Source of the DNA: Bacillota bacterium
GTDB lineage: Bacteria; Bacillota; UBA5301
Direction of reading: 5' to 3'
Assembly: GCA_012735535.1 (NCBI GenBank)
Contig: JAAYHC010000004.1
Coordinates: forward strand, 1-32,804
Length of the DNA: 32,804 nucleotides
A program made the translations under genes and the position numbers. Shown one piece after another: positions 15,820 through 24,503 of the stretch (the first letter of the stretch is position 1; every line of letters starts with the position of its first letter). The notes beneath the pieces were generated by a model that had not been told where the DNA came from, did no database searches, and saw only the letters and a program-made list of their open reading frames with translations.

Positions 15820-15887
15820 GCCGTGGCATAGGCCTACTCATCTAGGGCAGGCTAAATTTAGACTTGAGCCTAAAGGGGGCTAATTTT

Positions 15888-16937
15888 TTGGAGATAAAGA
15901 ACTTTTTGGTGGAAACATCGCAAGCAGCGGGACCATCCGGGTACGAGTCACAAGTGGGCGAGATCTTTGCTCGCTACATCCGTGATTACGCGGATGAGGT
16001 CTCAACCGACGCTTTAGGTAATGTTGTTGCAGTTCGCAGGGGAGCCGGACCTGATAGCCCCAAAGTCATGTTGGCCGGTCATATTGATGAGATCGGCTTG
16101 TTAATCACCAAAATTGAAGATGGCGGTTTTTTGCGCTTCACGAGAATTGGCGGTATTGATCAGCGCACTTTATTGGCGCAAGAGGTGATCGTGCACGGAA
16201 AGCAGCCGTTGAAAGGGGTTATTGGGGCTAAGCCGCCCCATATCCAAGAACCCGGGGAAGCTAAAAAAGCCGTGCCGATGGAAGAGCTGTTTATCGATAC
16301 CGGCCTACCCAAGGAAAAGGTGGAGAGAATCGTCAGTGTCGGTGATATCGCGACCATCGCCCGGACTGTCGTGGAGTTGCAGAACGATCTGATCGCCGGC
16401 AAGGCCTTTGATGATCGCGCCGGTGCTGCCGTGATACTCGCTTGTTTCCGCGAACTGGTCCGTTTTAAGACTAATGTCTCCGTGTATGGTGTGGCTACCG
16501 TTCAAGAAGAGTTGGGCACTAGAGGTGCTCGGACCAGCGCTTATGCGATCGAGCCTGATCTCGGCATCGGTATTGATGTGACCTTTGCCGACCGTGATGA
16601 TTTGCTGGAGGAACGCTCCAAATTAGGCAAAGGTCCGGCTATCGCCATTGGTCCGCAAGTGCACCCGGTCGTCTATCAACAGATGATCCAAATTGCGGAA
16701 AAGCGAGGGATCCCGTATCAAATCGACCCCTCACCCTCTCCGTTCGGGACCGATACCGCACCAATCCAAGTTTCCCGGGGCGGTACCGCCTCAATCCTGA
16801 TCTCAGTTCCGCTAAGGTACATGCATACTTCGGTGGAAACGCTGTCGTTAAAGGATATCGAGGCCGCCGGACGGTTGTTGGCCGAGTTCATCGCCGGTCT
16901 CGATGATCAGTTCGTGGAGGGGTTATCATGCTTTTAA
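15888..16937 (+). CDS. M42 family metallopeptidase 1 (glutamyl/leucyl aminopeptidase, TET type)
   Basis: This is a two-metal aminopeptidase of family M42, whose members form hollow tetrahedral dodecamers and degrade peptides released by proteases. All family residues are visible: His65 in GHIDE, Asp175 in AFDDRAG, the Glu207-Glu208 pair in QEELGTRGA (catalytic and metal), Asp230 in GIDVT, and His313 in RYMHT. The start chosen is TTG 15888 (349 residues), because AAAGGGGG at 15872-15879 fits and the family N-terminus (L-x-x-x-x-G-P-S-G-Y-E) follows at once. A TTG at 15864 lacks a ribosome site. It is the first of three consecutive M42 genes and overlaps the second by ten bases. Confidence 0.93.
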   Translation: MEIKNFLVETSQAAGPSGYESQVGEIFARYIRDYADEVSTDALGNVVAVRRGAGPDSPKVMLAGHIDEIGLLITKIEDGGFLRFTRIGGIDQRTLLAQEVIVHGKQPLKGVIGAKPPHIQEPGEAKKAVPMEELFIDTGLPKEKVERIVSVGDIATIARTVVELQNDLIAGKAFDDRAGAAVILACFRELVRFKTNVSVYGVATVQEELGTRGARTSAYAIEPDLGIGIDVTFADRDDLLEERSKLGKGPAIAIGPQVHPVVYQQMIQIAEKRGIPYQIDPSPSPFGTDTAPIQVSRGGTASILISVPLRYMHTSVETLSLKDIEAAGRLLAEFIAGLDDQFVEGLSCF

Positions 16938-17956
16938 AACAGCTAAGTGAGGCAATGGGTGTCAGCAGTCGGGAAGGAGAGGTCCGGGATCTACTCCGTG
17001 ATTATCTGGCGAGTTCGGTGGAACGGATGGAGACGGATCGCTTGGGCAACTTGTACTGTTACAAGAACTGGGATGCCGGCAGCCCGAGGGTTGTCATCAC
17101 CGCCCATATGGATGAGGTTGGCCTCATGGTCACCAAGATCGAGAAAGAGGGTTTTCTGCGCTTTCAGCCGGTTGGCAGCATCGACCCGCGAGTGCTGGTC
17201 AGCAAGCCGGTGGTGGTCGGATTGCAGAAGGTACCGGGAGTGATCGGGGCTAAACCGATTCACCTACAAGAGCCTGATGAGCGGAAAAAGGCCTTGGAGT
17301 ATAAAGATTTGTACATCGACCTAGGAGTAAACAGCGATGAAGAAGCCAAGAAGCTGGTAAGCTTAGGCGATCTCATCTGCTTTCCAACTCAGTGCGAAGA
17401 CTTACCGGACGGAGTGGTCAAAGGTAAAGCCTTCGATGACCGGGCCGGATGTTATGTCTTGGCCGAGGTATTGCGGCAGACGCAAACCTCAGCCGGCGTG
17501 GTTGGAGTGTTTACCGTCCAGGAAGAGGTTGGCATCCGCGGGGCGGAGGTTGTCGGCAATACGCTCCGGCCTGATCTGGCGATTGTCTTGGAGGGGACCA
17601 CAGCGGCTGATGTTCCGGAGATTGAGGAGCACTGCCAAAGCACCAAGCTCGGCGGCGGTCCGGCGCTTACCCTGATGGACCGGTTGGTCTTGGCGCACCG
17701 CCCGACGGTTCAATTGCTAACTCGCCTAGCTGATCAACTCGGACTACCGGTGCAGTTTAAGCGCAGCGCCGCCGGGGGCACGGAAGGCGGGGCTCTGGAG
17801 CGTGGCCATACCGGTGTGCCGACGGTTGTGATCTCGGTCCCTTGCCGGTATATCCACTCGCCTGTCGGCCTGGTCAGCAGGCATGACCTTGCAGCAACGA
17901 TTAAATTAGTCTTAGCGCTCTTGGATTATCTGCACAAAGAGGGGGTTCCCGCATGA
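16928..17956 (+). CDS. M42 family metallopeptidase 2 (Glu-variant metal ligand)
   Basis: This is the second M42 paralogue, 342 residues. It keeps His60 (AHMDEVG), Asp170 (AFDDRAG), Glu199-Glu200 (QEEVGIRGA) and His310 (RYIHS). At the site where its neighbours have Asp in VDVT it has Glu222 in VLEGTTAAD, a substitution known to me from one M42 subgroup, so it should still bind metal but may differ in substrate preference. ATG 16928 has GGAGGGG at 16916-16922 and overlaps gene 1 by ten bases. It overlaps gene 3 by four bases (ATGA), so the three are translationally coupled. Confidence 0.93.
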   Translation: MLLKQLSEAMGVSSREGEVRDLLRDYLASSVERMETDRLGNLYCYKNWDAGSPRVVITAHMDEVGLMVTKIEKEGFLRFQPVGSIDPRVLVSKPVVVGLQKVPGVIGAKPIHLQEPDERKKALEYKDLYIDLGVNSDEEAKKLVSLGDLICFPTQCEDLPDGVVKGKAFDDRAGCYVLAEVLRQTQTSAGVVGVFTVQEEVGIRGAEVVGNTLRPDLAIVLEGTTAADVPEIEEHCQSTKLGGGPALTLMDRLVLAHRPTVQLLTRLADQLGLPVQFKRSAAGGTEGGALERGHTGVPTVVISVPCRYIHSPVGLVSRHDLAATIKLVLALLDYLHKEGVPA

Positions 17957-18945
17957 AAGATTTAGTAAAGCAACTGAGCGAAACCTATGGACCATCAGGC
18001 CACGAAGCACAGATCCGGGAAGTCATCAAAAACCTGGTGGAGCCATATTGTGATGAGCTGACCACCGATACGCTCGGCAACTTGATCGCCCGTAAAAAAG
18101 GCCCGGGTGCGAAGGTGATGCTGGCGGCACACATGGATGAGATCGGGGTAATGGTCACCGACATAGATGAGCAGGGTTTTCTGCGGTTTACACGGATTGG
18201 TGGATTGTCCCCGCATTTGCTGCTCGGGCAGCGAGTAGTATTTGGCAATGGCGTAGTCGGAGTTTTCGGGCATGAGAAGATCGATGAGATCAAAGACCTC
18301 AAGTTTGAGAAGATGTACCTGGATATCGGGGCCCGCTCAAAAGCAGAGGCTTTGAGCCGGGTGAACCTCGGTGATGTGGCGGTCTTTGATCGCGATTTGG
18401 TCGCCTCGGGTGACATCTTGATCGGTAAAGCACTTGATAACCGGGTCGGATGTGCCGTCCTGATCAAGACTTTGCAAGAACTGTCGGCCGGGTCCAACGA
18501 TATTTATGCCGTCTTTACCGTCCAAGAAGAAATCGGCACCCGGGGAGCCAAAACCAGCGCTTATGGCATCGAGCCTGATCTCGGTCTGGCGGTCGATGTG
18601 ACCTTGGTTGGTGACACGCCGAAAGCGCCGACGAACGCGGTCTGTCTTGGCAAGGGACCGACGATCAAGGTCAAGGATGCTTTAGTCATGGCTCATCCGG
18701 AGGTCAAACGGGCTTTGGTTGAGGTGGCCGAACGCCAGGCGATCCCGTATCAATTTGAGATTCTCGATGCCGGCGGAACCGATGCCGGGCCAATCCATCT
18801 CAGCAAGTCAGGAGTAAGGTCGGGCGGTGTCTCCGTACCCTGCCGCTATGTGCACACACCGACCGAGATGGTTTCCCTCTCCGACCTGGAGAATGCGGTG
18901 AAATTGCTGAAAGCTTTTTTAGCTGAGCCGATAAAACAGGATTAG
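17953..18945 (+). CDS. M42 family metallopeptidase 3
   Basis: This is the third M42 paralogue, 330 residues. Its metal and catalytic residues are His60 (AHMDEIG), Asp162 (ALDNRVG, with Asn where the others have a second Asp), Glu192-Glu193 (QEEIGTRGA), Asp215 (VDVT) and His301 (RYVHT). The segment after the metal His is shorter than in paralogue 1 (VFGNGVVGVFGHEKIDE instead of the KPPH/KPIH loop), which in this family shapes the pocket. It starts within the stop of paralogue 2 (ATGA). It shares the motif pattern of paralogue 1 more than of paralogue 2, yet all three are clearly different proteins. Confidence 0.93.
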   Translation: MKDLVKQLSETYGPSGHEAQIREVIKNLVEPYCDELTTDTLGNLIARKKGPGAKVMLAAHMDEIGVMVTDIDEQGFLRFTRIGGLSPHLLLGQRVVFGNGVVGVFGHEKIDEIKDLKFEKMYLDIGARSKAEALSRVNLGDVAVFDRDLVASGDILIGKALDNRVGCAVLIKTLQELSAGSNDIYAVFTVQEEIGTRGAKTSAYGIEPDLGLAVDVTLVGDTPKAPTNAVCLGKGPTIKVKDALVMAHPEVKRALVEVAERQAIPYQFEILDAGGTDAGPIHLSKSGVRSGGVSVPCRYVHTPTEMVSLSDLENAVKLLKAFLAEPIKQD

Positions 18946-20444: not shown

Positions 20445-20530
20445 CCGGCATCCCTCCCTAAAATCTGTAATGTTATCTCTAGTCTTGGCTCCCGGTTAAA
20501 GTGGCCATGCTAGAACATTTTCCCTGCTAT

Positions 20531-20555
20531 AAACCCCGCATGGCATGCGGGGTTT
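20531..20555 (-). terminator. Rho-independent terminator after the SASP genes
   Basis: AAACCCCGC (20531-20539) pairs with GCGGGGTTT (20547-20555) around ATGGCAT, part of which can pair further. Read on the minus strand it stands 12 bases after the stop of the SASP gene and ends in TTTATAG. It closes the ku-ligase-polymerase-SASP-SASP unit and separates it from spoVT. Confidence 0.75.
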
Positions 20556-20566
20556 ACTCGGCAGCA

Positions 20567-20887
20567 TTAGAATTGATCAGGTTTTGGTTCTTGCTGAGCT
20601 AGCTTTTCGCTTTCGGCTTGGAAAGACTGTTGAAACGATCTGCGGACATCAGCGGTAACCTGATCGATGAGGGCTGCTTCGGCGGCAGCGATCATCTTTC
20701 GCACCATATGCCCGCCGACAGCGCCACATTCGCGAGCGGTTAGGTTGCCCCAGTACCCGTCTTGAATCTTGCTCGTATCAATACCGAGTTCATCGGCAAC
20801 CTCATATTTCATCTGGTCCAGGAGCTGTGCAGCTTCGGGCACAACCTTGCGGTTTTTGTTTTTTGCACCTTGAGCCAGACTAACCAC
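20567..20887 (-). CDS. Small acid-soluble spore protein, alpha/beta type
   Basis: This protein coats and protects DNA in the dormant spore. The SASP core is plain: VVPEAAQLLDQMKYEVADEL followed by the second motif GYWGNLTARECGAVGGHMVRKMI. A Gln-rich tail makes it longer than usual. The open frame begins at GTG 20887 (106 residues), but that GTG lies inside the only ribosome site (GAGGAGG at 20886-20892). A CTG at 20878 lies eight bases from it and would give M-A-Q-G-A-K-N-K-N (103 residues), which looks like a normal SASP start. The protease (GPR) cleavage region expected after E-V-A-D-E-L is present. Confidence 0.93.
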   Translation of the reverse strand: MVSLAQGAKNKNRKVVPEAAQLLDQMKYEVADELGIDTSKIQDGYWGNLTARECGAVGGHMVRKMIAAAEAALIDQVTADVRRSFQQSFQAESEKLAQQEPKPDQF

Positions 20888-20947
20888 CTCCTCGACTGCT
20901 GCCTATACTATAGGATTTCCGCGCTGATAAGCAACATACTGGCAACT

Positions 20948-21133
20948 TCAGTTACCCTTGGTCTGCTGATTAACGAGGGCTTCTTCGCCACGTTTGATCA
21001 TTTCGCGGACCACCAGGCCGACCTCTTTGGTGGTTACGGCTTCCCAACCTTCTTCTACGATTTTATCGGCAATTCCCAATTCCCGCGCTGCCTCCATCTT
21101 CAAGCGCTCGGAGGCGAAACGACCACGTGCCAT
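20948..21133 (-). CDS. Small acid-soluble spore protein, alpha/beta type (short)
   Basis: This 61-residue protein starts MARGRFASERLKMEAARELG and carries a degenerate second SASP motif, EEGWEAVTTKEVGLVVREMIK, comparable to GYWGNLTARECGAVGGHMVRKMI in its neighbour. Short clostridial SASPs of this form are familiar. It probably binds spore DNA, but it shares less with classical SASPs than the downstream gene. TAGGAGGTGG precedes the ATG. It lies 27 bases after the polymerase gene and 60 bases before the second SASP gene, all on the minus strand. Confidence 0.82.
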   Translation of the reverse strand: MARGRFASERLKMEAARELGIADKIVEEGWEAVTTKEVGLVVREMIKRGEEALVNQQTKGN

Positions 21134-21160
21134 CTTGCCACCTCCTAGCCATAGTCTGTG

Positions 21161-22105
21161 TCAGCGCACCCGGGTTATGTTGTCAAACTCTGCCGACCTG
21201 GCCGCGGCAAGGAGCTCGTTCAGCCGGCGCGCGGTTGCGGCAGGGGGGCGAGCCAAGATCGCGGCAAAGGGCAGAGTCGCCAGTTGGGGAAGTCTGTGCC
21301 GGTAGTTTCCGAGCGTGAAATCGGTGGGCTCCACAGTTTCGAGCTCCGCCCAGGTTACCGGCATCGAGATGGTTGCTTCCGGGGTGGGGCGGAGGGAAAA
21401 AGGAGCGACAATCGTTTGTCCGGCCAGGTTTTGCAGGTGATCGACATAGACTTTGGCGCCCCGATTTTTCACCAACCGTTCGGTGGTGATTAGTGCCGGG
21501 TTTAAAGTAAGCAGGATTTTGCCGAGGAAACCGGTCAAAGTGACCGAGTCGCGATGACTCCAGCCGGCCGGGAGCGGGAGGTAGACGTGTATCCCGGTTG
21601 CCCCGGATAATTTCGGGTAGGCGGTTAGCGACAGATCATCCAGGACTTGTTTGAGCAGTAAGGCGGCTTGGCGGGCTGCGGGAAAACCGGCCGGCGCCGT
21701 TGGATCAAGGTCGATCACCGCCCAATCCGGCTGATCCGGCGTTGTGGCCCGGGAGTGCCAGGGGTTTAGCTCGATGGCTGCCAGATTAACCACCCACAAT
21801 AAAGTGGCGAGATCATTGATGAGCAGATAGTTGGTCACCTTGTCGGTGTCTGCGGAGCGGACCGGATGCGTCTTGACCCAATTGGGCGTGCCAGGCGGTC
21901 GGTTTTTCTGGTAAAAGTATTTACCGGTGATGCCGTCAGGATAGCGCACCAGCGAGATCGGACGATCGTGCAGGTAGGGAAGCAAGTAGGGAGCAATCAG
22001 CGCGTAGTATTCGACCAACTGGGCTTTTGTGTATTGGGGCCAGAGCCGTTTGGTCAGGTTCGACAACCGCAGGGTGCGCCCGGAGATGGATATGCGCTTA
22101 TCCAT
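21161..22105 (-). CDS. ligD: LigD-type NHEJ polymerase (primase-like domain), separate protein
   Basis: This is the polymerase of bacterial non-homologous end joining, an archaeo-eukaryotic primase fold that fills ends with ribo- or deoxynucleotides. From the ATG at 22105 it has 314 residues. The catalytic acidic residues are Asp132 and Asp134 in VIDLDP and Asp222 in VYVDHLQN; the motif KLSGATGIHVYLPL (His173) lies between. The longer open frame (to 22246) runs back into the ligase gene and has no family likeness. It overlaps the ligase by eight bases. In many bacteria this domain is fused to ligase and nuclease domains; here it stands alone, and no nuclease domain is present. Confidence 0.92.
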   Translation of the reverse strand: MDKRISISGRTLRLSNLTKRLWPQYTKAQLVEYYALIAPYLLPYLHDRPISLVRYPDGITGKYFYQKNRPPGTPNWVKTHPVRSADTDKVTNYLLINDLATLLWVVNLAAIELNPWHSRATTPDQPDWAVIDLDPTAPAGFPAARQAALLLKQVLDDLSLTAYPKLSGATGIHVYLPLPAGWSHRDSVTLTGFLGKILLTLNPALITTERLVKNRGAKVYVDHLQNLAGQTIVAPFSLRPTPEATISMPVTWAELETVEPTDFTLGNYRHRLPQLATLPFAAILARPPAATARRLNELLAAARSAEFDNITRVR

Positions 22106-23027
22106 CTCGAACCAGCCCCCGGTAGGTTGGATGGCGGAGGAGGCCATCTTTGGTGAACTCCAAGTATTGAATCCTGCATCTGACAACCGGTTTGACCCAC
22201 CAGGTCTTTTCCGCGGTTGGCGGCACAGTAAGGGCAGGTTTCGCAATTAGGTATTGCACCAACAGTTGCAACAGGGCGGTCGCCTCGCGTTCACTATAGC
22301 CGGTGCCTACGCGTCCAATATATGTTAACTGACCGTCGGCAGCTTCTTTAGCCAAAAGTAAGGCATCGACCCGCGAGGCTCGTTCGGCAGCGGTAAATCC
22401 GACAATTGTGGCGACCAACTCTTGGCGGTTCTTGATTTTAAGCCAAAACTCGCTGCGTTTACCGGGTAGGTACGGGCTATTTTTGTCTTTGGCCATTACC
22501 CCTTCAAAGCCCTGGCCGAATACGATGGTCGCATAGGCTTGGCCAAAACCGTCAACAAACCTGGAGATCACCCAGGCCGGTTTCTCTTCCAGGCTGGCTG
22601 AAAGCAACTCTTTGCGTTGGTAGAGCGGAAGGTGGCAGAGCTCTTGATTATGCCGGTAAAGCAGGTCAAAGACCATGTAGGTTGCCGGATATTGGCGGGA
22701 GTAGAGTTTAATGGTCCGCGGCGAGTTGGCGCGCAGGCGGCGCTGGATGAGAGCAAAATCCGGTTTGGATTCGGAGTTGAGCACAACCAACTCACCATCG
22801 AAGATCGTGCCGGCCTGGCAGGAGTTGGGCAGCCCAGCTAGTTCGGGGAATTTAGCGGTGATATCGGTGAAGTTGCGCGATTGCAAGGTGAGTTTGCCGG
22901 CCGGGTTAACCAGGGCGAGGCATCTGATGCCATCCCATTTGATTTCAAAGAGGTGGTTGGCGGAGTCAAATGGTCGGCCGGCGGTACCGGCCAACATCGG
23001 AGCGAAACGCTCTGGAAACGGTTTCAC
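22098..23027 (-). CDS. ATP-dependent DNA ligase (NHEJ, LigD ligase-domain type)
   Basis: This ligase seals breaks after Ku-mediated end bridging. It has 309 residues. Motif I with the AMP-binding lysine is EIKWDGIR (Lys30), motif III is near YMVFDLLY, motif IV is FEGVMAKDKNSPY, and motif V is FWLKIKN. The OB domain follows (VGFTAAERASRVDALLLA, TYIGRVGTG). The GTG start at 23027 overlaps the Ku stop as GTGA, so translation is coupled to Ku. The gene overlaps the polymerase gene by eight bases. The size fits a ligase domain of LigD as a free-standing protein. Confidence 0.93.
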   Translation of the reverse strand: MKPFPERFAPMLAGTAGRPFDSANHLFEIKWDGIRCLALVNPAGKLTLQSRNFTDITAKFPELAGLPNSCQAGTIFDGELVVLNSESKPDFALIQRRLRANSPRTIKLYSRQYPATYMVFDLLYRHNQELCHLPLYQRKELLSASLEEKPAWVISRFVDGFGQAYATIVFGQGFEGVMAKDKNSPYLPGKRSEFWLKIKNRQELVATIVGFTAAERASRVDALLLAKEAADGQLTYIGRVGTGYSEREATALLQLLVQYLIAKPALTVPPTAEKTWWVKPVVRCRIQYLEFTKDGLLRHPTYRGLVRDG

Positions 23028-23818
23028 CGGGGCACCAGTTCTTTCTGTGCTTCGGTTGCCTTGATACTTTCTTCCAAAGCCTTCAGCAAGTCGATAACTT
23101 CGCCCTCAGCCCGCGGCTCTGGGATGGCGACCGCTTCCCCTTCAATTTTGCCCCGGATCAGCTCCAACAGCGCCTCCCGATAGTTATCCGTATATTTCTC
23201 CGGCTGAAAGTGGGTGGACAGGTTGTTGATCAGAGTGATCGCCATGGATAATTCATGCTCTTGAATGTTCGGGGTAAACTCCAGATCGGGAATGTTGCGC
23301 ACCGGTCTCACTTCATCCGGGTAAAACATGGTTTCCATGATCAAGGCCTGGCCCTGATAAACACGCAAACAGGCGAGGACTTCTTTTTTGCGCAAGACAA
23401 CCTTGGCAATCGCAATTTTACCGGTCTCCGCCATGGCTCGACGCAGCAGGGTGTAAGGTTTTTGGCCGCCTTCAGCCGGGGCGAGGTAATAGCTCTTGGC
23501 GTAGTAGACCGGATCGATTTCGCTTAACTCGACAAAATCCAAGATCTCGATGGTCTTGGCGGTGGCCAGCGGAATATTGGCAAAATCTGCTTCGCTGAGA
23601 ATCACGTACCTGCCCGGTTCATACTGATAGCCTGAAACAATCTCCTCGGCGGTGACCTCCCCGCCACAGGTGGGGCAGACCTTCGCATATTTGATCGGGG
23701 TATGACAATGCGCATGGAGATAATTAAATTTGAGGCTTTTCTCTTCGGTCGCTGCATAGAGTTTGATAGGAATATGCACCAGACCGAAGCTGATGGCTCC
23801 CCGCCAGATCGTCCGCAC
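23024..23818 (-). CDS. ku: Non-homologous end joining protein Ku
   Basis: This homodimeric ring threads onto DNA ends and recruits the ligase and polymerase. From GTG 23818 it has 264 residues beginning M-R-T-I-W-R-G-A-I-S-F-G-L, the standard bacterial Ku start; the longer open frame adds 19 residues without family likeness. The Ku core shows CPTCGGEV, GYQYEPGRYVIL and the central beta-barrel LRVYQGQALIMETMFYPDE. The C-terminal tail is short and charged (KATEAQKELVPR). A ribosome site GAGGGG lies at 23825-23830. Ku opens the minus-strand operon with the ligase, the polymerase and two SASP genes. Confidence 0.95.
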   Translation of the reverse strand: MRTIWRGAISFGLVHIPIKLYAATEEKSLKFNYLHAHCHTPIKYAKVCPTCGGEVTAEEIVSGYQYEPGRYVILSEADFANIPLATAKTIEILDFVELSEIDPVYYAKSYYLAPAEGGQKPYTLLRRAMAETGKIAIAKVVLRKKEVLACLRVYQGQALIMETMFYPDEVRPVRNIPDLEFTPNIQEHELSMAITLINNLSTHFQPEKYTDNYREALLELIRGKIEGEAVAIPEPRAEGEVIDLLKALEESIKATEAQKELVPR

Positions 23819-23869
23819 TCTCTTCACCCCTCGATAAATATTTTGGTACCCTGTTGTAGAAAATAACCT

Positions 23870-23996: not shown

Positions 23997-24503
23997 TTGT
24001 TAGAACGCGAGACAATTTTAACGCCCGCTGGGTTTAATCGGCTAAAGTCTGAGCTCGATACCTTAAAGATTACCAAGCGCAAAGAAGTTACCGCGAAAAT
24101 CCGTGAAGCTTTGGAATTTGGCGATCCGTGGGGCAACCCCGAATACGAGATGGCTAAACAGGAACAAGCCTTTGTCGAAGGCCGGATTAAGACTTTGGAA
24201 TCACTGCTGGAAAACGCCAAGGTGGTCAAACAAGCCAAGCAGGCGGACACAATTCAGCTCGGTTCGCTGGTAAGCGTCTTAGACCTGGAAACCGGTGATG
24301 AACATAGTTATATTATCGTGGGTAGCGCCGAAGCGGACCCGCTCAACAATCGGATCTCGTATAAGTCGCCGGTTGCTCAGGCGCTATTAGGACACCGGGC
24401 CGGTGATGTGGTTGAAGCCGACTGTCCGATCGGGGTGGTGCGGTTAAGAGTGCTCGCAGTTTCTGCTGCCGAGAGCGAACTGACCAGCGAAGAAGTCTCT
24501 TGA
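23997..24503 (+). CDS. GreA/GreB-family transcript cleavage factor homologue with altered tip
   Basis: Gre factors enter the RNA polymerase secondary channel through an N-terminal coiled coil and a C-terminal FKBP-like domain. This 168-residue protein has both: LTPAGFNRLKSELDTLK at the start and a globular end with LGSLVSVLDLETGDEHSYIIVG and RISYKSPVAQALLGHRAGDVVE. In the coiled-coil tip, the usual GDLSENAEY reads GDPWGNPEY. Asp43 is kept, but the Glu expected at position 46 is Gly. E. coli GreA uses Asp41 and Glu44 there. Activity in RNA cleavage may be lost or changed. The TTG start at 23997 follows GGGGTG at 23984-23989. It is divergent from ku. Confidence 0.9.
   Translation: MLERETILTPAGFNRLKSELDTLKITKRKEVTAKIREALEFGDPWGNPEYEMAKQEQAFVEGRIKTLESLLENAKVVKQAKQADTIQLGSLVSVLDLETGDEHSYIIVGSAEADPLNNRISYKSPVAQALLGHRAGDVVEADCPIGVVRLRVLAVSAAESELTSEEVS

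Follow-up and report, generated by a model that had tools for sequence, protein, structure and literature searches.

A probable forespore gene block that combines DNA packing with end repair in uncultured Bacillota, with a short SspF-like spore protein gene beside the end-joining polymerase

The window analyzed here is a stretch of 32,804 nucleotides from a Bacillota bacterium (contig JAAYHC010000004.1). Its minus strand carries the genes for bacterial Ku (ku), a LigD-type DNA ligase (lig) and a LigD-type polymerase (pol), the three components of non-homologous end joining (NHEJ), followed by two genes for small acid-soluble spore proteins (SASPs), here called SASP1 and SASP2, and then by spoVT. 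Gene order and promoter elements suggest that these genes quite probably form a conserved, co-regulated forespore block of the SigF/SigG type that has promoters inside it and serves both DNA packing and end repair. It would combine a three-gene NHEJ operon with a dedicated SspF-like SASP of the short type and, as a rule, with a second SASP; spoVT would be the neighbor.

Conservation of Gene Order

In a first survey of 101 relatives, the LigD-type polymerase was found in 63 and SASPs in 90. In 7 of the 63 pol-positive relatives (G000 to G005 and G022), pol is followed immediately by a SASP gene of the same orientation, and 56 have no SASP in that place. By a rough estimate from about 3.7 SASP genes per 2.6 Mb, the number of genomes, out of 63, that would by chance have a same-strand SASP gene no more than 1 kb from pol is well below 1. 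The class of the window was sampled with 7 genomes only; all of them have pol, six have a SASP directly behind it, and spoVT takes that place in the seventh. Since the order recurs in six of the seven class genomes and in two families that belong to a different class, it is found more often than expected by chance. The original prediction had named a survey of related genomes as a check on its claims, and the order proved to be conserved, in two classes.

A scan of the genome collection with nothing but an alignment of SASP1 as query recovered 18 loci, all from uncultured Bacillota. At each of the 17 loci that extend far enough, pol is the next NHEJ gene upstream of SASP1, with one gene intervening at two loci (L142 and L144). 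Locus L136 begins at SASP1 and L147, from the same isolate, ends in SASP1; the two look like halves of one broken contig. The class of G022 comprises 73 genomes, 62 of them with pol. Here 14 genomes carry SASP1, every one of the 11 in family f21 and of the three in family f149, and the gene is next to pol in each case (the contig end truncates this copy in G405 and G406), while the 48 remaining pol-positive genomes have no SASP1. Overall, SASP1 stands beside pol in 19 of 19 genomes (G000 to G003, G005 and the 14 of f21 and f149), including five of the seven in the window's class. In f149, pol and SASP1 are separated by a DUF72 gene of the same orientation (L210, 7270-8097; PF01904, 210 bits).

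The main groups with support are shared by the trees of pol and rpoB, which pair f21 with f141, f149 with f144, f59 with f146 and f130 with f143 and unite the three f1 genomes, in a comparison in which several forks are weak and some rpoB rows partial. Because most of the well-supported groups are common to both trees, the genes appear to have descended vertically and thus to have been maintained for a long time. Horizontal transfer of the whole cassette between classes was considered and is unsupported, as the pol tree keeps the rpoB-tree pairs f21/f141, f149/f144 and f59/f146. The link between SASP1 and pol is either old and was lost in sister families, or it arose more than once. Three f21 genomes (G407, G410 and G412) have two near-complete rpoB genes each, which may be a true duplication or a sign of mixed bins.

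Vertical descent is also what would be expected of mere synteny, in which slow rearrangement holds the genes together and their only functional tie is that all are spore genes. This explanation is favored by the families without SASP1 and by greA, which is no spore-packing gene and yet is about as conserved a neighbor, with the same position in the window's family, G006, f21 and f149. However, the link holds across two classes and several families despite differing surroundings, in which spoVT is flipped or moved or the DUF72 gene is inserted. Furthermore, the SASP1 subfamily described below is not seen elsewhere, whereas SspF-like SASPs in general are scattered. On balance, mere synteny is an unlikely explanation.

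Individual loci vary in their details. An extra SASP, intermediate between SspF-like and ordinary types, is found near or behind spoVT in four relatives (L035, 4987-5220; L036, 4538-4834; L037, 9154-9465; L038, 2738-2998), where the window carries FolE2 (GTP cyclohydrolase). The ligase gene is split over two frames in L036/L131 (1589-2378), either by a frameshift or by an assembly error, and the cluster of L037/L143 consists of ku and pol with no ligase between them.

SASP1 as a Separate Subfamily

When the SASP1 alignment was compared with 399 genomes of the phylum, 7 genomes matched at 109 bits or more (the lowest at 109.6), followed by a gap down to 75 bits. The next 23 matches are short SspF-like SASPs with no ku, lig, pol, spoVT or greA in their flanks of up to 1.5 kb. 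Because of the score gap from 109.6 to 75 bits, SASP1 constitutes, at the level of sequence similarity, a subfamily separate from the ordinary SspF-like SASPs. Plain SspF was rejected as a full description of SASP1 on account of the same gap.

SASP1 aligns over its full length with the phylum's short SspF-like SASPs (MSExLKYELAxELGVAD..GWG..), and the alignment shows neither the N-terminal segment nor the GAVGG stretch of SASP2. Its signature reads ASExLKMEAA... GW..[VA]TTK.[VI]GL[VM]V[RK][EN]M[IV][RK][RK]GE, with L143 and L146 as exceptions. Inspection of the alignment points to a putative region for the site of the GPR protease (E-x-A-x-E-x-G), which is KMEAARELG in SASP1 and KYEVADELG in SASP2. 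A search of the PDB with the SASP1 profile returned no homologue; a SASP of 61 amino acids is expected to be unfolded without DNA. SspF has been described as a separate SASP group with its own COG, multi-copy in clostridia (Galperin et al., PMC3533761). Like the SspF-type minor alpha/beta SASPs, SASP1 has about 60 amino acids, no N-terminal extension, no GAVGG stretch and a GPR-like site, but it differs from them in its own signature, in the score gap and in being linked to NHEJ genes without exception.

The complete association of this subfamily with NHEJ genes, its divergence from ordinary SspF and the presence of ordinary SASPs in the same genomes could be taken to mean that SASP1 is an accessory factor of NHEJ and cooperates physically with Ku, ligase and polymerase. 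It might, for example, hold ends in SASP-coated DNA, or yield at ends for the loading of Ku. Such a hypothetical role is very doubtful, since many NHEJ-positive relatives have no SASP1, the gene has its own promoter, and the protein has an ordinary SASP layout that includes the GPR-like site. It also seems highly unlikely that SASP1 has evolved into a spore chromatin protein dedicated to NHEJ, one that acts alongside Ku, polymerase and ligase where SASP-coated DNA is broken. If this were true, repair of the packed spore chromosome would have its own chromatin partner in SASP1.

Candidate Promoter Elements of the Locus

The predicted SASP1 promoter of the window (Table 1) places its -35 box within the 3′ end of pol and its -10 box within the gap between the two genes. 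If no more than one mismatch is allowed, the motif RHATR-N17/18-CANACTA is found at -46 to -51 of SASP1 in 13 of 18 loci (mean of 0.12 and maximum of 2 in shuffles), and the window element matches it exactly. This motif is partly post hoc, as it was recognized via the promoters of SASP1 and of standalone SASPs in G022 only. The textbook SigG form (GHATR - 17/18 - CATNHTA), a consensus independent of these data, occurs before SASP1 with at most one mismatch in 6 of 18 loci, vs 0.06 in shuffles. Furthermore, the SASP1 promoter element is retained in f149 despite the inserted DUF72 gene.

As an independent check, the motif was searched genome-wide. There are nine exact copies, five of which precede a gene: SASP1, spoVAEA (SpoVAE, 247.7 bits), a SpoIIQ-like M23 peptidase gene, a TepA-like ClpP protease gene and glmM (at 81 bp). 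Because a control pattern read backwards gives similar raw counts, it is the genes behind the matches that are informative, not the number of matches. The spoVA genes are members of the SigG regulon. In C. difficile, spoIIQ is a forespore gene under SigF (PMC3789822), and tepA is controlled by SpoVT in Bacillus (PMC5061766). The motif could act as a regulon finder in this lineage (G000 contigs C8, C27, C75 and C21; L215, L222, L218 and L221).

A likely forespore-type promoter also precedes SASP2, with one mismatch to GHATR/CATNHTA, and similar boxes occur at the matching position (-60 to -62) in three other genera (L131, L132 and L146). Before ku, a comparison of upstream regions yielded a promoter-like element whose boxes and spacing are identical in L131 and L132, near-identical in L143 and looser in L071. 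It is the sole exact match to GGTTATTTTNTAC in the genome. Its assignment to SigG is inferred: the spacing fits a forespore promoter, and the window sequence does so loosely. Upstream of ku in f21, the form GGATA-N18-YATCCTA is exact in seven of nine loci and has at most one mismatch in all nine. The spacer of the ku promoter is also conserved (GGTTATTTTYTRC) in the window, L131, L132, L143 and L071, as if bound by a regulator, and the -35 and -10 boxes of f21 form an inverted repeat (GGATAA...TTATCC). An alternative upstream of ku, GCATC...GATACTA, was dropped because its spacing is wrong and it is not conserved.

A scan with the textbook sigma-70 form was uninformative for the genes of the block. 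Strict scans of all upstream sets for GHATR/CATNHTA, SigF and SigA forms were set aside; the strict SigG form missed the positive control (standalone SASPs). The sigG gene itself is present, above the cut-off, in all 15 genomes tested (the window genome and relatives). The link to the spore regulon that had been proposed for the locus is consequently upheld by sigG and by the SigF/SigG-type elements before SASP1 and SASP2, and is less firm before ku, where the match is weaker.

These elements bear directly on the proposal that ku, lig, pol and both SASP genes are a single operon, in which one transcript would run from the ku promoter through both SASPs and packing and repair would be strictly co-expressed. 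The overlaps of the three NHEJ genes, the shared strand and order in relatives, and a junction between pol and SASP1 of only 27 bp with no terminator are all consistent with a single operon. However, the conserved forespore-type promoter at this junction, likely joined by another before SASP2, speaks against it, as does the promoter kept before SASP1 in f149, where the DUF72 gene parts pol from SASP1. In addition, a spore generally requires much more SASP than repair enzyme. A single operon is thus decidedly unlikely, and the strict co-expression envisaged by the original prediction has to give way to a block with internal promoters. With promoters of their own, the SASPs could be transcribed separately from the NHEJ genes and more strongly than these; transcripts from ku may also read through into them.

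Gene Identities and Locus Layout

The identities first assigned to the genes of the locus from the sequence (ku, ligase, LigD-type polymerase, two SASPs and spoVT) are borne out by profile matches (Table 1). Ku, the LigD ligase domain and the LigD polymerase domain are all present, each above its TIGR cut-off (TIGR02772, TIGR02779 and TIGR02778); the KxDG motif of the ligase reads KWDG. The score of spoVT falls slightly below the TIGR02851 cut-off (217.8 vs 235.9 bits). A single multidomain LigD polypeptide was not seen at the locus, where ligase and polymerase are separate overlapping genes, an arrangement also common in relatives. The open reading frame coordinates agree with the original description, giving an overlap of 4 bp between ku and lig, an overlap of 8 bp between lig and pol, and a gap of 27 bp between pol and SASP1.

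The distance between the two SASP genes depends on the start codon of SASP2. The GTG at 20887, which gives the 60-base gap of the original description and a protein of 106 amino acids, falls within the ribosome-binding site (cgaGGAGGTGG). An in-frame CTG lies 8 nt past this site, at 20878, and gives a protein of 103 amino acids that begins MAQGAKN, like other SASP N-termini; the same CTG layout is found in a sister genus (L131, at 3601). Because the GTG overlaps the ribosome-binding site, the spacing of the CTG fits and the MAQG N-terminus matches homologues, CTG 20878 is probably the start, and the gap would then be 69 bp.

No terminator-like site was found on the coding strand between pol and SASP1, as had been supposed, and the RNA fold at this junction is not unusual (z = +0.55). 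The terminator expected between SASP2 and spoVT has a counterpart in a terminator-like hairpin in that interval.

Table 1. Features of the probable forespore-type block and its surroundings, in window coordinates.
Feature	Position	Strand	Evidence
ku, bacterial Ku, 264 aa	23024..23818	-	TIGR02772 (Ku_bact) 316.6 bits, cut-off 150; PF02735 187.4 bits
lig, stand-alone LigD-type ATP-dependent DNA ligase, 309 aa	22098..23027	-	TIGR02779 (NHEJ_ligase_lig) 239.8 bits, cut-off 227.75
pol, stand-alone LigD-type primase-polymerase, 314 aa, ATG 22105	21161..22105	-	PF21686 (LigD_Prim-Pol) 277.4 bits; TIGR02778 246.9 bits, above cut-off
SASP1, short SspF-like alpha/beta-type SASP, 61 aa	20948..21133	-	PF00269 26.1 bits, cut-off 22
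SASP2, ordinary alpha/beta-type SASP with C-terminal extension	20567..20878 (or 20887)	-	PF00269 94.3 bits, cut-off 22
spoVT, forespore transcription regulator, 175 aa	19917..20444	-	TIGR02851 217.8 bits, cut-off 235.9; SpoVT_C 118 bits
Predicted SASP1 promoter, SigF/SigG-like, ACATA-N17-CAGACTA	21152..21180	-	conserved motif
Likely forespore-type SASP2 promoter, GTATG-N17-AATCCTA	20911..20939	-	1 mismatch to GHATR/CATNHTA
Promoter-like element before ku, GGTTA-N18-CAAAATA	23839..23868	-	comparison of ku upstream regions
Terminator-like hairpin, 13 bp + short U-tract, SASP2/spoVT interval	20529..20557	-	fold of stretch -26.9 kcal/mol, z = -3.7
greA, divergent neighbor	23997..24503	+	NF001263 167.5 bits

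The divergent greA belongs to the conserved surroundings of the block and lies outside the block proper. Elsewhere in the window (15864-18945), three neighboring genes are, judging by sequence, putative M42-family aminopeptidases.

Discussion

The data are best accounted for by a forespore block with internal promoters. In such a block, RNA polymerase carrying SigG (possibly SigF) would transcribe the three NHEJ genes modestly from the promoter before ku, part of this transcription would continue into the SASPs, and the internal promoters would supply the larger SASP output required for coating the chromosome. The neighboring SpoVT probably modulates the block, in the way known for ykoV-ykoU of B. 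subtilis. The SASPs would coat and protect the single spore chromosome until the GPR protease degrades them at germination, and Ku, polymerase and ligase, prepacked in the spore, could rejoin double-strand breaks without a second chromosome copy as template. Clustering would keep packing and end repair within one forespore regulatory neighborhood.

Several observations weigh against this reading. In the window's class, G004 (L070) has a SASP of the SASP2 type alone behind pol, and G006 has no SASP there. Families f141 and f144, the sisters of f21 and f149, have ku-lig-pol without SASP1; because they keep the NHEJ genes in this state, the link between SASP1 and NHEJ is not essential. The loci of one family are not independent of each other, and the window's ku element is three mismatches away from the textbook SigG consensus. 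Finally, the block belongs to uncultured organisms that are represented by their genomes only.

No SASP gene is known to adjoin ykoUV in B. subtilis. In that species ykoV-ykoU (ku-ligD) is the spore NHEJ operon under SigG and SpoVT, a control stated in the original prediction and documented in PMC3656841, which cites Wang et al. 2006. The locus described here resembles ykoV-ykoU in that Ku and the ligase and polymerase activities of LigD are encoded in one operon, and in forespore control by SigG with SpoVT input, which the promoters and the spoVT neighbor suggest. It differs in that LigD is split into two genes, SASP genes follow directly, and spoVT adjoins. The split ku/lig/pol clusters of other Bacillota have the same three NHEJ genes, often overlapping, but most (the 56 of 63 in the first survey) differ in having no SASP directly behind pol. 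A survey of 5,973 bacterial genomes reported that non-conventional NHEJ is over-represented in Firmicutes, and the term SASP is absent from its text (PMC7719229). No published link between SASP and NHEJ genes was found in the open-access library searched, going by titles, abstracts and text passages, with subscription papers outside the scope.

SASP-alpha/beta and Ku/LigD both matter for the survival of B. subtilis spores (PMC6399134), and SASP coating and Ku/LigD repair are known there as two separate spore functions (PMC6399134 and PMC3656841). Here the two are joined at the level of the genome through a SASP subfamily that is not seen elsewhere and has been kept through the divergence of two classes. 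This makes it testable whether SASP-coated DNA needs a partner of its own for end joining at germination. Ultimately, SASP1 may serve as a marker, and its promoter motif as a guide to forespore genes, in lineages known here from metagenome assemblies only.

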